Source: an uncultured Clostridium sp. (lineage in GTDB: Bacteria; Bacillota; Clostridia; Lachnospirales; Lachnospiraceae). From it: a DNA stretch of 13,357 nucleotides. The stretch's first letter is position 1; every line of letters starts with the position of its first letter. The position numbers and the translations under genes were made by a program. A model generated the notes under the pieces. It was not told the DNA's origin and did not search any database. It saw nothing but the letters and a program-made list of their open reading frames with translations. This document shows, one piece after another, positions 1 through 12,373 of the stretch. The stretch is taken from positions 1 through 13,357 of the forward strand of contig CATWBR010000072.1 in the NCBI GenBank assembly GCA_958349075.1, given 5' to 3'.

Positions 1-2194
1 TTATAAAACCTCTATACTCGTCTTCGGATAAAGGCGGTGACACTAAAAAGCCCTGCAGATAATCACAGTCCAGTCTCTGCAGTAGATGCAGCTGTTCCCT
101 GCTTTCCACGCCCTCTACAATTGTCAGCATGTTAAGCCGTTTCGCCATATGCAGCACGCTCTCAACCACGATCTGCCTGCGGACATCCTCCCCCTCCGAG
201 GCCAGAAATCCCCGATCCAGCTTCAGAATATCAAGGGGAAGCACCTGAAGTACATTCAGGGAAGAATAACCAGTCCCAAAATCATCCATAGCGCAGATAA
301 ATCCCGCTGTTTTCAGTTTTTTCAAAACCTGCTGCATCAGTTCCAGATCTTCCACGGCAATACTCTCCGTAAATTCCAGTTCCAGTTCGTCATTCTCTAT
401 CTGATATTTATCCCTGATCGCAATATAAGTCTCCACAAACTCGGGTTGGATCATCGTATGCCTCGACACATTGACGGCAATACAGACAGAAGGCAGTCCG
501 CTCCTTTTCAGCCGGTTGATCAGAATACAGATTTTCTCATAGATATACTGGTCCAGGCTGGCTATCATGCCGTTTTTCTCGAACAGTCCGATAAAATCAT
601 CCGGCATCGCATAGATCTGTCCTCCGCGTATCCAGCGTACCAGAGCCTCCGCCCGGTGCTGCTTTTGTCCGCTCACCTTCCGAAGCTGTATCTGAGGCTG
701 TAAGTACAGTACAAACTCTCCGTTGGCAAGAGCCTCCCTCATCTCCGACTCCATCTGTATCTCGTTCAGGGCCTTAATCCTCAGCTCCTCGGTGAAAAAG
801 CCGGGCCTGCTGCCTCTCAGGTTTTTAACCGACTTCTGCGCCATATTGGCACGGTTCAGCATTTCGTCCACATCCATATTGCAGGAGGAGTCCGGAATAA
901 AAACACCGCTGTTCACCTCAACCTGGTAGTTCTTCTCCCGAAACGGCGTGAGTGAAGCCAGTTTTTCCACAAGCAGTTCAAATCTCTCCTGCAGTTTTTC
1001 CGCTTCATCGCGTTTCCACAAAAATGCAAAATTATCGTCGCTGACGCGGCAGAATATCTCCGCCTCCCCGCAGTTGTCTTTCAGGCAGGACGCCCAGTAC
1101 TTCAGTATCCGGTTTCCTGTATGGAATCCGAACAAATCATTGATGTATTTGAAATTTTTGATGTCACAGTACCACACCGAATACTCCGACGGCAAAGCTC
1201 TGGCAAAGAGCACGCCCGCTTCCCTCCTGAACCCCTCCAGGTTCAGGCTGCCCGTCAGTGCGTCGTAATACTCAAGACGCATTTTCTTTCTGTAAAGCTC
1301 TTCCTTCTGCATCAGGGATGCTATATAGAATGCCAGTGTAAAAAGCATTGTAAGATCGGACTGGTGCTTTGTAAAATTCCCAATGGTAATCATACCGGCC
1401 AGCTCTTTCCCTATAAAAATGGGTGTACAGCAGAGTGAGGTCACCCCTTCCGCTTTCAAAAACTCATAATTCTCAGGATCTGTCTCCCTGATACTCTCCG
1501 TATCCATAATCAGTATCTGGGAAGAGCTGCTTAAAAGCTTTCCGCATTCCCTTATGTAGGCAGACTGCCGCTTGCCCGGACTCCACTTGCCTCCCTGCCT
1601 GCTGCCCCACTCGACAAGGGTGGGATAATCTCCGCAGCTATGGATAGTTCCCCACTCTGCGTCAAAAAAAGGACAGATGTTGTCCATAATCCGTCTCTGA
1701 GCTACTAACTGATCCGCCTCGTCAAGCATGGGCTGAATACAGTTCATCAGTATATTCTGGCTCTTGAAGCTCTCCTCCAGGGCGCTCAAAACAGCGTCAT
1801 GCCCCTCCAGCGCTGTTGCAATCTCCATACGGACGGTCCGCCCGTTAAGATCCACTAATTTATCTTTTAAAATATAGTCGTTATTTAAGAAAGGATTATG
1901 ACGCGTCCAGGTGTAATAATGATCCCTGCTGAGAAGATGATTGGTGCAGAACGGACATGGTTCGGAACGGCCCTGAAATACCTCATAGCATTTCTCACCC
2001 TGGTAATGATCGCGTTTCAATTCCTCGGCAATAAATTTCTCATTACTGATATAGAGAACTTCATATGTCTCCGGATCACTGAAATAAACGAAAGATTCCG
2101 GCATCTCCATTGTCAGTATTTCATTGATTGTCCATTGATACCGTCTTATGATATCAAGCCCTCTTTTCTGTCTGTTTCTGAATTCTTCTCTCAA
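1..2194 (-). CDS. PAS/GAF/GGDEF(degenerate)/EAL c-di-GMP phosphodiesterase, C-terminus cut by window edge
   Basis: The minus-strand frame is open from a TTG at 2194 to the left edge, giving 731 residues without the final few. Residues about 10-125 form a PAS-like sensor with a cysteine cluster (C69, C80, C83, context EPCPFC). About 155-300 are GAF-like. A GGDEF domain starts near D311 (DALTG), but its signature is SDDNF at 385-389, so cyclase activity is unlikely. The EAL domain from about 480 keeps every expected catalytic motif: E516-A-L with RW, NVS, the FTES glutamate, DDFGTGYSS at 637, KLD, EGVE and LQGF. I infer a cytosolic enzyme hydrolysing c-di-GMP to pGpG, tuned by its sensor domains. 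TTG is chosen because AGGAAG lies 7 bases upstream. An in-frame ATG at 2275 would add 27 residues but has no ribosome binding site. No membrane segment is seen. Confidence 0.93.
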   Translation of the reverse strand, partial: MREEFRNRQKRGLDIIRRYQWTINEILTMEMPESFVYFSDPETYEVLYISNEKFIAEELKRDHYQGEKCYEVFQGRSEPCPFCTNHLLSRDHYYTWTRHNPFLNNDYILKDKLVDLNGRTVRMEIATALEGHDAVLSALEESFKSQNILMNCIQPMLDEADQLVAQRRIMDNICPFFDAEWGTIHSCGDYPTLVEWGSRQGGKWSPGKRQSAYIRECGKLLSSSSQILIMDTESIRETDPENYEFLKAEGVTSLCCTPIFIGKELAGMITIGNFTKHQSDLTMLFTLAFYIASLMQKEELYRKKMRLEYYDALTGSLNLEGFRREAGVLFARALPSEYSVWYCDIKNFKYINDLFGFHTGNRILKYWASCLKDNCGEAEIFCRVSDDNFAFLWKRDEAEKLQERFELLVEKLASLTPFREKNYQVEVNSGVFIPDSSCNMDVDEMLNRANMAQKSVKNLRGSRPGFFTEELRIKALNEIQMESEMREALANGEFVLYLQPQIQLRKVSGQKQHRAEALVRWIRGGQIYAMPDDFIGLFEKNGMIASLDQYIYEKICILINRLKRSGLPSVCIAVNVSRHTMIQPEFVETYIAIRDKYQIENDELELEFTESIAVEDLELMQQVLKKLKTAGFICAMDDFGTGYSSLNVLQVLPLDILKLDRGFLASEGEDVRRQIVVESVLHMAKRLNMLTIVEGVESREQLHLLQRLDCDYLQGFLVSPPLSEDEYRGFI

Positions 2195-2302
2195 CGTCTC
2201 ACTTCCTTTTCTTTCGTACACTGTTTGTAACGGTTCCGTACCTTCACGGTTCCCGTTCCACACCTCGCAGTGCATCACCGTCTGAACAGATATGATTATT
2301 TT

Positions 2303-7227: not shown

Positions 7228-8208
7228 TCAAATCACCAGTTTCCCCGTTCCCTTTTCCTTATCGTTGAGACGCACCAGCTCCGCCCGGAATTTTTTGCTT
7301 TTTTCATCCGCCAGCTCAATATTGTGCAAATGCTTTTCTATAAACATAATTCCCGCCGCGTATCTGGATATCTCCTCCGTTATTTCGTCCGATAACTGGA
7401 TCTCACCCGTGTAGACGGCCGTTGTCTTTGTTCTGTTCCAAAGATTCCTGGAAAAATGGAACTCGTACCCGATCAGGCAATTCCCCAGGCAGCTCACGAA
7501 CTCCCGGATAGAGGAACATAATTTTTCTTCCAGTGACTGGCAGATTATATCCGAAAACTCAAAGCAGGTCTGTAGTTTTCTGCGGATATCCTCGCGTTCC
7601 ATCAGATAAAATGTATCGTCCATTCCCGTCTGGCGTCTTATCTCCATATCCTCCATGAACATCAAAAACAGCTTCTCCCATGACTCCACAGACAGCACCG
7701 CCTGTTCCATACGGCTGCAGAGGTTTTTGGCCTCCTCCATCTGCAGCGCCCTTTTGCGGAGCTGTGCCCTGGTGCCGTCCAGCATCTTATTCTCAATTCC
7801 TTTCAGCTCAAACTGGGCGTTGCGGAGCCTCTCATCCAGATTCACACGCATCCTGCAGTCAATATGCGGCCATATTTCTTTGTTAAAGACCAGTGTTTCC
7901 ATCTTTTCCGACTGTTTCTGTAAAAGTTTTAGAACTTCTTTCTCCAGCTCTTCGATTTCTTTTTCTCCGATCTCATCTGGCTGGAACTCGATTAGCTGTT
8001 CAAAATTCTGCTGCGTGATTTCCGCTGCAATCCTTGTGCTCCACGTACAGAGTAATCCGGCAACCCTGGCACAGCACATTTTTACTTTCTCAATCTTCTC
8101 ATTCTCGCTCTCTATGAACTTTTCCTGTTTCTCAATTTCGAGCTTTAATTCTTCGATTCTCTCAATGGTTTCCATACTTGTTCTATACTTCTCCCCTTCC
8201 GCTGCCAT
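7228..8208 (-). CDS. Unknown coiled-coil, Cys-rich protein downstream of a c-di-GMP riboswitch
   Basis: I do not recognise this 326-residue protein. It is predicted to be soluble: no signal peptide or membrane segment is seen. Residues about 12-43 and 80-105 are Glu/Lys-rich heptad-like helices, likely coiled coils, with further amphipathic helices at about 120-175 and 180-235. Cysteines are frequent (C45, C46, C54, C118, C164, C215, C223, C231, C240, C244) but show no obvious metal-binding spacing. The C-terminal third (about 245-300) contains YEFHFSRNLWNRT and a mixed, more globular stretch. The start is uncertain. The ATG at 8208 has GGGGTG about 16 bases upstream, rather far, and an in-frame TGA lies just before it; M12 (8175) is an alternative. 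Its leader carries a c-di-GMP-I aptamer and terminator, so expression should respond to c-di-GMP. Roles in surface behaviour or motility would be a guess. Confidence 0.8.
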   Translation of the reverse strand: MAAEGEKYRTSMETIERIEELKLEIEKQEKFIESENEKIEKVKMCCARVAGLLCTWSTRIAAEITQQNFEQLIEFQPDEIGEKEIEELEKEVLKLLQKQSEKMETLVFNKEIWPHIDCRMRVNLDERLRNAQFELKGIENKMLDGTRAQLRKRALQMEEAKNLCSRMEQAVLSVESWEKLFLMFMEDMEIRRQTGMDDTFYLMEREDIRRKLQTCFEFSDIICQSLEEKLCSSIREFVSCLGNCLIGYEFHFSRNLWNRTKTTAVYTGEIQLSDEITEEISRYAAGIMFIEKHLHNIELADEKSKKFRAELVRLNDKEKGTGKLVI

Positions 8209-8378
8209 ATGCGAACAATAATATCACCCCGGAGCCTGCACCTGTCTTAAACATCCTCGTGAAGGTATATCAGCAGTCTAACAACGAAAAAAGCGCATTT
8301 CACAGATTTTTCATCGACAATCAACGGTAGCCCGGATGCCGCATGCACCGATTACCGCGGTCAATGAACGCAATACTG
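8209..8378 (-). other. Long structured leader between riboswitch terminator and coding start
   Basis: About 170 bases separate the riboswitch terminator from the coding start. On the minus strand they contain a stem CGGTA/TACCG enclosing a second stem GGTGC/GCATC, with a T6 run further on (8292-8287) that has no good stem in front of it. No promoter, convincing small gene or ribosome binding site was found, apart from a far-placed GGGGTG. Translational control of the downstream gene is possible but not shown. Confidence 0.35.
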
Positions 8379-8412
8379 AAAAAAGCAGACACCAAAATCA
8401 GGGGTATCTGCT
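8379..8412 (-). terminator. Riboswitch-associated intrinsic terminator (expression platform)
   Basis: On the minus strand GCAGATACC (8411-8403) pairs with GGTGTCTGC (8393-8385), nine pairs with one G-T wobble, followed directly by T6 (8384-8379). It starts about 20 bases after the aptamer core and precedes the coiled-coil gene by some 170 bases. This is the expected position for a transcription-attenuation expression platform. Confidence 0.85.
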
Positions 8413-8424
8413 CGACACGCATTC

Positions 8425-8512
8425 AAAATGATTGCAACTGGCTGTCATATACTTCTACTTAGACCCTCTAGCTTTGCGCCGCCGCCTTTCGACGGGTTTG
8501 CCATATATAATA
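8425..8512 (-). ncRNA. Cyclic di-GMP-I riboswitch (GEMM-I aptamer)
   Basis: The minus strand carries the GEMM-I consensus in order. GGCAAACC is at 8502-8495. The P2 hairpin CCGTC-GAAA-GGCGG has the required GNRA loop. CGCAAAGC follows, then GGGTCTAAG pairing region with TATGA, the variant tetraloop receptor, then CAGCC and GTTGC. Using Vc2 numbering, G20 (8501), A47 (in CGCAAAGC) and C92 (8434) are all present. G at position 20 indicates c-di-GMP rather than cGAMP preference. Differences from consensus are C25 facing C40 at the base of P2, G instead of A at 42, and a weak P1. It is preceded by a strong promoter and followed by a terminator, so it should control the coiled-coil gene at 7228-8208. 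Whether ligand turns expression on or off cannot be read with confidence. Confidence 0.92.
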
Positions 8513-8525
8513 TTTGCTCGTAGTC

Positions 8526-8554
8526 ATTATACTTTATTTTGTTTGGAAGTGCAA
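8526..8554 (-). promoter_or_regulatory. Near-consensus promoter for the riboswitch transcript
   Basis: Minus-strand TTGCAC (8554-8549), a 17-base spacer and a perfect TATAAT (8531-8526) predict transcription from about 8519, just before the aptamer. It is the best promoter in the window. High basal initiation fits control by attenuation rather than at the promoter. An inverted repeat CGGTTT/AAACCG (8556-8577) lies directly upstream. Confidence 0.85.
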
Positions 8555-8565
8555 ACGGTTTCTTT

Positions 8566-8592
8566 AAAAACAAACCGGCAAAGTATTGCCAA
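8566..8592 (-). terminator. Probable terminator of the 770-residue membrane/TPR-like gene
   Basis: On the minus strand GGCAA (8590-8586) and TTGCC (8581-8577) form a stem with a TACT loop, extended by two T-G wobbles, followed by GG and TTTGTTTTT. It lies about 25 bases after the stop at 8616 and just before the riboswitch promoter, separating the two units. The stem is short, so termination may be partial. Confidence 0.5.
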
Positions 8593-8615
8593 TAAATGGA
8601 TAACAGAAAAATCAA

Positions 8616-10928
8616 TTACGGAATCTGCCTGGGAAGACAGACCCGGGAAAACATGCGTTCCAGTTCCTTTCGTTCCGGACACGGTCCCTCCAGATGAGAT
8701 ATGATGAGATTGTAAACCGTATCGAAAAATGTTTTTTCCTGTTCCGGCAGGCTGTCCGGTTTAAACGCCAGCAAATGAACTTCGGAAGGGATAGTTCCGG
8801 TCTGCGCGGCGCTCCGTTTTATCACATTTGACTCCCCGGTCTGCATTGGATGGCGTTCCAGTACAAAATAGCAATGGGCGGGGTTTTCTTCCAATGGAAA
8901 CTGCCGGTATGTAAAGTCCATCTCCAGGCCGATCGGCTGAATCGTGAGCCAGAAATGCCTGCGCAGCACGGTTTCTGCATTTTCCGGTCCTGCGGCCGGC
9001 TCCTCCCACGTCTTCACTTTTACCGGGATTGTCTCCTCCGCCCCCATAAACCGGCCGAGCAATGCCGACATCATCAGTCCGTCCTCCGTGAACGCCTGCT
9101 CAAACCACAGACGGAACGGAGCCTCATATGTCTCTATCTCTTTGCTGCTTTGAATCCTCTTGACCGCCCTGTAAAAATACTGACTGCGGGCAATGAAACA
9201 CACCACCATATAATACCGGTGGAGCCATGGTGCGAAATGCTCCAGCGAGATGCTGTCCATACATTTCCTGACCCGTTCATAATACAGGACACATCTGTCG
9301 TAATCATCCAGATGGAAGCAGTAAAAACTCAGCCTGAGATAAACCTCCGCTAACTGGGAAGTTTCCGTCATCTCGTCCAGATGCGCCTCCACCCAGCCGA
9401 GCTGCTCCCACATGATGTCCGCATGGGCCGCCTTAAAATTGTGATCCAGGTTCTGCACACCGCAGAGCTCGTCCATGATATTGAGCCTGCACTGAAGTCC
9501 CTCCGGCAAAAGGGAATTCTCATCACACAGAGCGGCGGCGTCCTGCATCAGGGCCATAAAATGCTTCAGTTCGTACTGCTCTAGATGTTCTTTTTGCAGT
9601 GCCGCCAGTTCCTTCAGCAGGTGGATCCGGGAATAGATGGAGACCGACGGCAGCTCTGAAGAGCCCAGATACCGTTCTAAATCCGGAATCGCCTGATTCT
9701 TTCTGTACCAGAACGCATATTCCCTGAGTGCGGCTTCTTCTTCTGAGGGACAGCCGAAAAGTTCTCCGAACATAATGTTAATCTGCTTCATACTCTCATA
9801 CCTGACGGGGAGCGGAAGACTCAGAAGGATCTCTTTCCGGGCTGCCAGATAATGAATGCAGGGACGGGGATCCAGCCCCGAAGCCCAGACAATCCGCGCC
9901 GTACTGGCCGCCAGGACCACCTTATTTTTTTCAGGCAGCCTTTTGTCGCGGATGATTCTTTCAAAACCGCTGTTGACCATCTGATTTAAATTGCCGGCCG
10001 GCTCCTCCGCTTCCCGCATCAGCTCCAGCCTGATGTTTGACAGCGACAGGTATTCAATCGGATGAGCCATGTTCAGATGCGTCTGCAGTTCGTCGATGAT
10101 AGCCCTCCAGTCCGCACTGCGCCCCTCGATCCGGATCCGGTTAAAGGCATAATTATAATAAATGATCAGCAGCAGTTCTTTATCCCGGATTTTCCGTTCT
10201 TCCACAAACTGCAGCGTACTCTTGAGAGCCTTGTCGGCATCCCGGTAATATCCCCGGCTAATCAGGCTCACGGCCCTGTTATGAAGGATCTGCACATGAA
10301 TGAGGGGATCCGTATCGGCCGTGCACGCCTCCTCCGCCCTCCTGGCATGGACAGATGCCTCTTCCGTCTTCCCTTGCCGGAGCCGGAGCAGATTCATTAA
10401 AAAATGATACCTTGCTTTGTCCTCTTTCAAGGATTCGATCAGGGGCTCCGCGGCGCTTAAATTTCCCAGGGTAATCAGCAGAAACACCTTATATTTTTTA
10501 CACCTCGCGTTCTGCTTTGCCGTCATTTTCCTCCCGCTCAGCGCAGCTACAGTCTTCCATGCCTTAATAGTATCATAGTCTATCCGCAGGGTATCGCTGA
10601 ATCTCCTGCCCCGGTGCAACTGCACCTCGATCCGTATATACTCCGCCAGGCCATAGAGGCATAATAAAACCATCAGAGAAAGGCAAAGCCCCAAAATAAC
10701 TTCTTTCTTGTCTTCCCCCTCCGGCAGAACTGCCCAGACCACGCCTGCGGCTTCCGCTAAAACGCCTTCCGAAACCGTGATAAACACCATATAACGTGGT
10801 AAATGATGCTCCTTTTTAAGGATCCACTTGCCAAGCAGAATCAAAAATATTGCAAGCAGGACCGGTACGTATGCCGGTGTGCCTTTTATATAGTCTTCAA
10901 ATAAACCATACAGAATGTCTCCTGTCAT
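8616..10928 (-). CDS. Unknown membrane-anchored protein with TPR-like helical repeats
   Basis: I do not recognise a named family for this 770-residue protein. The N-terminus has three likely membrane helices (about 18-37, 46-68 and 76-97). A long, mostly helical region rich in Ala, Leu, Glu and Arg follows. Residues about 140-330 resemble TPR-type helical pairs (for example HARRAEEACTADTDPLIHV and NRAVSLISRGYYRDADKAL), and more continue at about 430-600 (AEVYLRLSFYCFHLDDYDRC). The last 150 residues look more beta-rich (RRHFWLTIQPIGLEMDFTYR) and may be a separate domain. The bulk is probably cytoplasmic. Such anchored TPR-like proteins often act as scaffolds or sensors, but no partner is evident here. 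GGGGGAG 5 bases before the ATG supports the start. It is flanked by terminators on both sides, so it is probably monocistronic. Confidence 0.85.
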   Translation of the reverse strand: MTGDILYGLFEDYIKGTPAYVPVLLAIFLILLGKWILKKEHHLPRYMVFITVSEGVLAEAAGVVWAVLPEGEDKKEVILGLCLSLMVLLCLYGLAEYIRIEVQLHRGRRFSDTLRIDYDTIKAWKTVAALSGRKMTAKQNARCKKYKVFLLITLGNLSAAEPLIESLKEDKARYHFLMNLLRLRQGKTEEASVHARRAEEACTADTDPLIHVQILHNRAVSLISRGYYRDADKALKSTLQFVEERKIRDKELLLIIYYNYAFNRIRIEGRSADWRAIIDELQTHLNMAHPIEYLSLSNIRLELMREAEEPAGNLNQMVNSGFERIIRDKRLPEKNKVVLAASTARIVWASGLDPRPCIHYLAARKEILLSLPLPVRYESMKQINIMFGELFGCPSEEEAALREYAFWYRKNQAIPDLERYLGSSELPSVSIYSRIHLLKELAALQKEHLEQYELKHFMALMQDAAALCDENSLLPEGLQCRLNIMDELCGVQNLDHNFKAAHADIMWEQLGWVEAHLDEMTETSQLAEVYLRLSFYCFHLDDYDRCVLYYERVRKCMDSISLEHFAPWLHRYYMVVCFIARSQYFYRAVKRIQSSKEIETYEAPFRLWFEQAFTEDGLMMSALLGRFMGAEETIPVKVKTWEEPAAGPENAETVLRRHFWLTIQPIGLEMDFTYRQFPLEENPAHCYFVLERHPMQTGESNVIKRSAAQTGTIPSEVHLLAFKPDSLPEQEKTFFDTVYNLIISHLEGPCPERKELERMFSRVCLPRQIP

Positions 10929-11152: not shown

Positions 11153-12328
11153 TTACATCTCCTGAAGCACCCAGAGCGCATAATCCACATACACATTGCA
11201 TGCGATCAGCAGCCCGTTTTCATCGAGATCAAAAAGTCCGTGATGGTGTGCCACACCGGTATTCGGCTCCCCGGGATTATGGGTTCCCACAAAGGCATAC
11301 ATTCCTTTTGCAGCCGCCAAATAATCGGCAAAGTCATCGGCCCCCAGCGCCTTTTCATAGTTACTGATGATTCCGGACGCCGGAAGGATCTTCTCGGTGA
11401 CGGCGGTGACCTCCGCCACCACCTGTTCGTCATTTACAAGGGGAGCCGCATAATCGCGGATTTCCACTTCCGCCTCGGCGCCATAGAGTTTGGCCGTCTG
11501 TACGGCGATCTGAACCACCTTGTCATTGGTAAATTTTCTTACTTCGGGGCTGAAGCTTCTGGTGGTTCCCTCAATCTCTGCATGTTCCGCCACGATATTG
11601 TACTGGGTCCCCGCCTTGATCACGCCGACACCTACCACTACCGTTTCCAGCGGATCCGTGTTTCTGGCCACTATGCTCTGAAGTCCCACAACGATCTGGG
11701 ATGCGATGTAAGCGGCGTCGATTCCAAGATGAGGTTTTGAGACATGGGCGCCTCTGCCGGTTATGGTGATTTTAAAGTAATCACAGCTTGCATTCTGAGG
11801 CCCCTTTGTCAGGGAAATTTTTCCCGTATCGAGGGCGCTGCTCACATGCGTTCCGAACACCCGGTCCACACCGTCCAGAAGTCCGGCTCCGACAAACTGT
11901 CTGGCTCCCTGCCCAATCTCCTCCGCCTGCTGGAAGAAAAGACGGATATGCCCGCCGAATTCTCCCTTTTTTGCATTTAAGATCTTGGCCGCCGTCAGAA
12001 GTGTGGCCGTATGGCCGTCGTGGCCGCAGGCATGGCAGAATCCCTCATTCTGTGAATGATACTCCACCGTTTTTAAGTCTTCCATGGCCAGTGCATCCAT
12101 GTCGGCCCGGAGGGCAATGGTTTTCCCTTCGCCCTTTTCTCCGTCGATCCAGGCATACACGCCCGTCTCGCCGATTCTCTCATGGGGAAGGCCGATTTTA
12201 TCCAGCTCCTCCTCTATTCTCCTGCATGTATTATATTCCTTCAGACTTACTTCAGGATGAGCATGAAAATATCTTCTCAGGCTGACAAGGTAATCTTTTT
12301 CGTCTGTTACATACTGTTTTAATGCCAT
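11153..12328 (-). CDS. M20 family amidohydrolase, HipO/N-acyl-L-amino acid amidohydrolase type
   Basis: A 391-residue cytosolic metallo-amidohydrolase of usual length for the M20D/HipO group, which releases amino acids from N-acyl (acetyl, benzoyl) derivatives. Predicted metal ligands, numbered from the chosen start, are C101 and H103 in HACGHDGH, E136/E137 in FFQQAEEIGQG, H161 in GTHVSS and H362 in AHHHGLFDLDE. RADMDALAM supplies the core aspartates. An ATG at 12340 would add four residues but has no ribosome binding site; GGAGGG sits just before the ATG at 12328, so that start is preferred. It lies 45 bases downstream of metQ with no terminator between, so the two are probably co-transcribed. 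This fits a substrate taken up by the methionine-type transporter, such as an N-acyl-methionine or a methionine dipeptide. The substrate is inferred from context only. Confidence 0.93.
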   Translation of the reverse strand: MALKQYVTDEKDYLVSLRRYFHAHPEVSLKEYNTCRRIEEELDKIGLPHERIGETGVYAWIDGEKGEGKTIALRADMDALAMEDLKTVEYHSQNEGFCHACGHDGHTATLLTAAKILNAKKGEFGGHIRLFFQQAEEIGQGARQFVGAGLLDGVDRVFGTHVSSALDTGKISLTKGPQNASCDYFKITITGRGAHVSKPHLGIDAAYIASQIVVGLQSIVARNTDPLETVVVGVGVIKAGTQYNIVAEHAEIEGTTRSFSPEVRKFTNDKVVQIAVQTAKLYGAEAEVEIRDYAAPLVNDEQVVAEVTAVTEKILPASGIISNYEKALGADDFADYLAAAKGMYAFVGTHNPGEPNTGVAHHHGLFDLDENGLLIACNVYVDYALWVLQEM

Positions 12329-12373
12329 TTTACCCTCCATCCGTGCCGGCTTGGCGCACCTTTTCCTCAGTGA

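Follow-up and report, generated by a model that had tools for sequence, protein, structure and literature searches.

Does c-di-GMP control a protein of no recognised family in this Clostridium genome, and if so, in which direction? The question arises from the minus strand of the 13,357-nucleotide stretch analysed here (the window), where a class I c-di-GMP riboswitch precedes a single gene. The explanation that we consider best, and likely to be right, is that this riboswitch, with a terminator at 8413-8383, gates a monocistronic gene for a lineage-restricted helical protein. Under the proposed mechanism, binding of c-di-GMP to the class I aptamer would alter the chance that transcription stops at 8413-8383; termination there would decide whether the monocistronic gene for the helical protein is transcribed; and the product of the riboswitch-controlled gene would be this lineage-restricted, probably cytosolic protein. 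The features, all on the minus strand and in the order of transcription, are as follows.

8574..8593 (-), terminator-like hairpin behind the upstream 770-aa gene (pattern scan, weak alone)
8526..8555 (-), promoter-like site TTTGCA-18-TATAAT (pattern scan; weak -35, perfect -10)
8430..8512 (-), c-di-GMP-I (GEMM-I) riboswitch aptamer (RF01051 match; orthologous matches in the related loci L001 and L002)
8378..8413 (-), intrinsic terminator of the expression platform, with T6 (z -6.43; pairs kept in three species)
8176..8377 (-), remaining leader, about 200 nt (three-species alignment)
7228..8175 (-), gene of an all-helical 315-aa protein without family (the open frame reaches 8208, 326 aa)

Aptamer, terminator and direction of the switch

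When the window was compared with Rfam, the c-di-GMP-I aptamer at 8512-8430 (-) was the sole match at the gathering threshold (RF01051, 63.7 bits with the gathering score at 35; E = 8.3e-11; model positions 1-87, its full length). The aptamer claimed on this strand by an earlier, sequence-only reading is thus borne out by the covariance-model search proposed with it, which gave a significant, full-length match. The three contact positions named in that reading are all retained in the RF01051 alignment (GGCAAA at its first G, GCAAAG at its first A and UUGC at its C, which we take to be G20, A47 and C92 in Vc2 numbering), and its GAAA loop with a matching receptor is also found, GAAA forming the P2 loop and P3 carrying UCUAAG...UAUGA, presumably the 11-nt tetraloop receptor. 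The aptamer lies in the 5' leader, on the same strand as the gene, whose start codon follows after 254 nt. For the free aptamer RNA, the best fold was no better than those of shuffled sequences (z +1.05). The riboswitch observation is real and well supported, and the element is a further member of an already known class; by analogy with this family, its ligand would be c-di-GMP, and ligand binding would be expected to alter termination.

The promoter-like site combines a perfect -10 box, TATAAT, with a -35 box, TTTGCA, that matches in 4/6 positions, at a spacing of 18 nt, so that the previous description of a near-perfect promoter is right for the -10 box and overstated for the -35 box. One promoter-like site was found in the scan vs. 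1.1 expected in shuffles, and the -10 box and its distance to the aptamer are identical in the window, L001 and L002. The scan for terminator-like sites likewise gave one (8574..8593) vs. 0.7 expected; this hairpin sits just 3' of the end of the upstream 770-aa gene at 8616, a position which suggests that the riboswitch unit is a transcription unit of its own, apart from the upstream gene.

Downstream of the aptamer and without overlapping it, the terminator hairpin at 8413-8383 (-) consists of a core stem of 9 bp, a 9-nt loop and a run of six T; with two of these T paired, the best fold reaches 11 bp (-15.8 kcal/mol, z -6.43, 0/200 shuffles as good). It is missing from the pattern-scan list because that scan permits loops of at most 8 nt. 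All 11 pairs are retained in L001 and L002, three of them altered on one side in L002, and the terminator with T6 that had been noted behind the aptamer is upheld, with its stem kept in the three species. In a consensus fold of the whole leader from the three sequences, both partners were changed in 4/108 pairs (covariation term +0.16); since the pairs are mostly invariant, nothing was drawn from this fold beyond the terminator.

The leader behind the terminator contains an SD-like GGGGAG, 15 nt upstream of the start codon at 8175. The long distance from the terminator to the start codon, about 200 nt, would accommodate a promoter within the leader that mainly drives the gene, with the riboswitch RNA acting alone, and a riboswitch upstream of spo0A (L010, described below) has a second promoter-like site further downstream. 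However, the pattern scan listed no promoter-like (sigma-70-like) site in the stretch between terminator and gene, a single sigma-D-like pattern found no match upstream of the window gene or of its riboswitch-less orthologues, and the stretch is less conserved in L002 (125/185 positions); we rate this alternative as the least probable of those considered.

To compare the possible directions of the switch, the energy gain of the terminator was calculated with and without a forced aptamer fold in the three species. Forcing the aptamer changed this gain by +0.2 kcal/mol in the window, -0.1 in L001 and -2.8 in L002; thus, the folding test favours an OFF switch in L002 alone, the terminator becoming less favourable by 0.2 in the window, and no clear antiterminator emerged from folding in the window, L001 or L002. 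According to excerpts of two reports, those class I riboswitches of C. difficile that are functional act as OFF switches (PMC6366702; PMC6200980), and on this precedent alone we lean modestly towards c-di-GMP turning the gene OFF. Conversely, the same riboswitch might be an ON switch, whereby c-di-GMP would relieve termination and the protein would belong to the sessile state. A class I ON switch exists, namely Bc2 (thuringiensis), as stated in an excerpt of PMC6366702, transcripts of Cdi-1-1, a class I locus in C. difficile, became more abundant with c-di-GMP, as stated in an excerpt of PMC6200980, and folding in the window and L001 shows no preference for OFF. The C. difficile precedent, the separation of terminator and aptamer, and the 2.8 kcal/mol by which the L002 aptamer fold favours the terminator all speak against an ON switch, which we regard as rather unlikely.

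A closely similar known system is Cd1 of C. difficile flgB (RF01051), with which the window element shares the aptamer consensus, the contact positions, the GAAA loop with its receptor and an intrinsic terminator after the aptamer. In contrast to Cd1, the riboswitch in the window has as its target a single gene whose family has no name, the leader runs about 200 nt beyond the terminator, and no Cd1-like antiterminator was seen in folding; in Cd1, according to an excerpt of PMC9262584, formation of the antiterminator requires giving up ligand binding.

Near the riboswitch, the window also encodes a GAF-GGDEF-EAL protein (3-2278, minus strand, truncated at the edge of the window), which may be a c-di-GMP enzyme.

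The gene and its product

The open frame spans 7228-8208 (-) and 326 aa, as had been described. In C. symbiosum, a 1-nt indel lies just upstream of METIER, and the distant homologues P0015, P0016, P0017 and P0019 start at the position matching 8175; these two features make a start codon at 8175 more likely, so that the frame stands but the protein is read here as 315 aa (8175-7228, minus strand).

No match above the curated cut-offs was found for the window protein in Pfam or in NCBIfam (where it was run as the single query), in agreement with the original failure to assign a family. Among 14 family members, the best Pfam E-value was 0.0034, for one member, and DivIVA (PF05103) gave no Pfam match for the window protein or these 14 members at E <= 0.1. 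Membership of a defence family (best PADLOC match, E = 0.12) or a phage family (best PHROG match, E = 0.091) was rejected as insignificant, and PDB sequences included no significant relative (best E = 0.17). Candidate origins on mobile elements were also discarded: the region 7228-8600 had no megablast match in the plasmid collection, the protein had no tblastn match in the phage collection, and no relative was present among 212 pattern matches in viral contigs.

The model that AlphaFold2 built from 14 sequences is confident and all-helical (mean pLDDT 86.8, pTM 0.81), the longest helix reaching 62 residues, with a single small hairpin besides; this is the outcome of the structure prediction that had been suggested. 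Foldseek retrieved nothing at E <= 0.001 from the PDB or the viral library, and a second look gave generic long-helix matches alone; a family missing from this list shows nothing. Two rows, HP0958 (which we assume to be flagella-related) and the flagella-related FliT-FliD, were not above the level noted for helical proteins and were not used.

The highest 19-residue Kyte-Doolittle mean of the window protein is 1.07, with no transmembrane-like stretch, and 35% of its residues are charged; together with the all-helical model, these values fit the soluble, helical product proposed earlier. The protein is probably cytosolic. The epithet "Cys-rich" applies just mildly, Cys accounting for 10/315 residues.

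Two homologues have unusual architectures. P0011 (283 aa) combines a Flg_new repeat with the second part of the window-protein family; it comes from a single contig that may be a chimeric assembly, and was used for alignment A1 alone. P0006 carries a tandem duplication of part of the N-terminal region.

Conservation, distribution and possible function

The unit of -10 box, aptamer, terminator and gene recurs in Clostridium transplantifaecale (L001) and [Clostridium] symbiosum ATCC 14940 (L002), whose proteins are 90% and 63% identical to that of the window, respectively; the pairing of riboswitch and gene is thus not peculiar to the window and is kept in two further species. RF01051 scored 61.9 bits in L001 and 63.1 bits in L002, in the orthologous place, and the distance from the aptamer to the start codon is 254 nt in the window, 252 in L001 and 241 in L002. 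Compared to the window, the 83-nt aptamer has 2 differences in L001 (81/83) and 3 in L002 (80/83), whereas the leader behind the terminator is identical in 186/201 positions in L001 and 125/185 in L002, a contrast in conservation that is marked for L002 and slight for L001. The gene has a synonymous divergence from the window of 0.56 in L001, and one that is saturated in L002. The dN/dS ratio of 0.087 for the window and L001 points to purifying selection on the protein; that for L001 and L002 (0.079) is unreliable because dS is 3.2 there.

These data bear on another alternative, namely that a genuine aptamer sits in an element that has stopped working as a switch, or that acts as a constitutive attenuator, like Bc1. 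As reported in an excerpt of PMC11218506, Bc1 binds its ligand, yet its genes are unresponsive to c-di-GMP; in an excerpt of PMC6200980, 5/12 class I aptamers of C. difficile 630 had no detectable downstream coding sequence; and the lack of a clear antiterminator by folding would fit such an element. However, the aptamer is kept in 80/83 positions against L002 despite saturated synonymous sites, and aptamer and terminator are retained together in three species. We consider this alternative very unlikely and retain the working riboswitch as the preferred reading.

The gene upstream of the unit (8616-10928, minus strand) encodes a 770-aa protein with weak TPR matches, and its counterpart in L001 encodes 781 aa. 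In L002, this gene is absent from that position, and the orthologue of the window gene at 11153-12340 comes next upstream instead; thus, the unit is not tied to its upstream neighbour.

Relatives of the window protein numbered 15 by protein search and 19 with a profile. The family profile found the gene in 5/8 genomes of the genus, and the same five were recovered from the relatives sample (5/295). In three family and order samples, which overlap and in which few candidates were scored per genome, the C. symbiosum genome G002 was the only hit (1/299, 1/397 and 1/392). Among the whole genomes sampled, the protein family was therefore seen in one genus alone, and homologues known only from metagenomes may lie outside it.

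In the genus genomes G301 and G303, the orthologue (35% identical) occupies the same locus, adjoining relatives of the window's PfkB-type kinase gene (Pfam) and of its transporter gene, which we take to be MATE-type. In G304, just a 211-aa frame with a partial family match stands beside the transporter gene, and is taken for a remnant of the gene. No c-di-GMP-I match was obtained at the loci of G301, G303 or G304 (a lax search covered 7600-7900 of L017), nor elsewhere in G301 and G303 among the first-look candidates scored (150/435 and 150/341, respectively). Since no riboswitch accompanies the orthologues at the G301 and G303 loci, and none was found among the candidates scored in these genomes, the protein does not need one. 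Six DNA loci of the family were examined; the riboswitch is present at the three from the symbiosum clade and absent from the other three, which gives a divided answer to the question, raised by the sequence-only reading, of whether homologues are also preceded by GEMM-I. With 150/380 first-look candidates scored, the copy before this gene was the only c-di-GMP-I riboswitch found in the C. symbiosum genome G002. Searches for c-di-GMP-II riboswitches gave no match in the 8 genus genomes and were equally blank in the controls, so that absence is not implied.

Flagellin was found in 5/8 genomes of the genus (G001, G002, G301, G303 and G305). The intact gene occurs in 4/5 of these and in 0/3 genomes without flagellin, G305 being the genome with flagellin and no gene; with n = 8 related genomes, the one-sided p is 0.07, a value that ignores kinship. 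The correlation is a weak lead on function, no more. Because the intact gene, within the genus, turned up solely in flagellin-encoding genomes, our guess is that the protein serves the motile or planktonic state as an accessory. A fuller history, which we put forward tentatively and judge unlikely as a whole, would have a genus-restricted cytosolic helical protein, older than its link to the riboswitch, come under c-di-GMP control in the C. symbiosum lineage through gain of the riboswitch (or its loss in sister species); this protein would be the only riboswitch-borne c-di-GMP output in C. symbiosum and a new intracellular effector of the switch between motile and sessile states, possibly tied to flagella.

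The riboswitch class is known; the family of its apparent target is uncharacterised and lineage-restricted. A search of the open literature library for "symbiosum" together with "c-di-GMP" returned no paper on C. symbiosum, so that c-di-GMP signalling there looks little studied, and the role of the sole class I copy found in G002 is directly testable because it points to one unstudied protein. Comparing sister species whose shared orthologue either carries the riboswitch or lacks it also illustrates how genes can enter or leave a c-di-GMP regulon.

Targets of other c-di-GMP-I riboswitches

How unusual such a target is can be gauged from other loci. At least 110/299 family genomes have c-di-GMP-I riboswitches, a lower bound given that 14 candidates were scored per genome. 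Pfam was run on the likely downstream protein of 24 loci, picked by a simple frame-picking script: 19/30 survey loci (including L051) and the genus loci L004, L006, L008, L009 and L010. The 11/30 survey loci left out (L026, L027, L029, L036, L043-L046, L050, L053 and L054) included some with unclear or repeated targets. For 20 targets (18 survey loci, L004 and L009), Pfam matches were obtained in 16 cases and none in 4; the 16 include four CAP proteins, three solute-binding proteins, three PAS or GGDEF sensors, and one each of LRR_5, Flg_new, transglutaminase, pectate-lyase-like, pilin-like and T2SSE proteins. The other four targets scanned (L006, L008, L010 and L051) are CYTH, DivIVA, Spo0A and VTC proteins, respectively. 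Thus, secreted-, surface- or sensory-looking targets seem to dominate among those scanned, and cytosolic-type ones occur.

An excerpt of PMC6200980 states that 3/6 c-di-GMP-repressed class I loci of C. difficile encode hypothetical proteins, so that an unassigned target alone is unsurprising. The same excerpt gives lower transcript levels with c-di-GMP in vivo for Cdi-1-8, -9 and -11, where, as in the window, a class I riboswitch is followed by a gene whose function is not known; the likeness is one of riboswitch-gene arrangement. This hypothetical-protein precedent (PMC6200980, excerpt), together with the cytosolic-type targets in the genus (CYTH and DivIVA-like among them), weakens both the former view of the target as unusual and its candidacy as a new c-di-GMP output.

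In L006 (1501-2219, plus strand), the riboswitch precedes a CYTH-domain protein, and in L051 (1612-2334, plus strand) a VTC-domain protein. In L008 (701-1587, minus strand, genome G304), a riboswitch of 71.6 bits with a 12/12 promoter-like site and a terminator-like hairpin stands before a DivIVA-like coiled-coil protein. The L008 target resembles that of the window in its cytosolic coiled-coil type, its genus and its combination of promoter-like site, aptamer and terminator, but has no detectable homology to it, a relationship rejected at an hhalign probability of 0.2%.

At L010 (1501-1576, minus strand, genome G224), a c-di-GMP-I riboswitch of 57.6 bits lies between spoIVB and spo0A, behind a 12/12 sigma-70-like promoter, with a second site (11/12) just before spo0A; promoter-like sites at this locus numbered 5 vs. 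2.2 expected. A riboswitch was present at 1/20 spo0A-like loci scanned (of 30 loci), and a link of c-di-GMP to sporulation control via L010 would be of interest.
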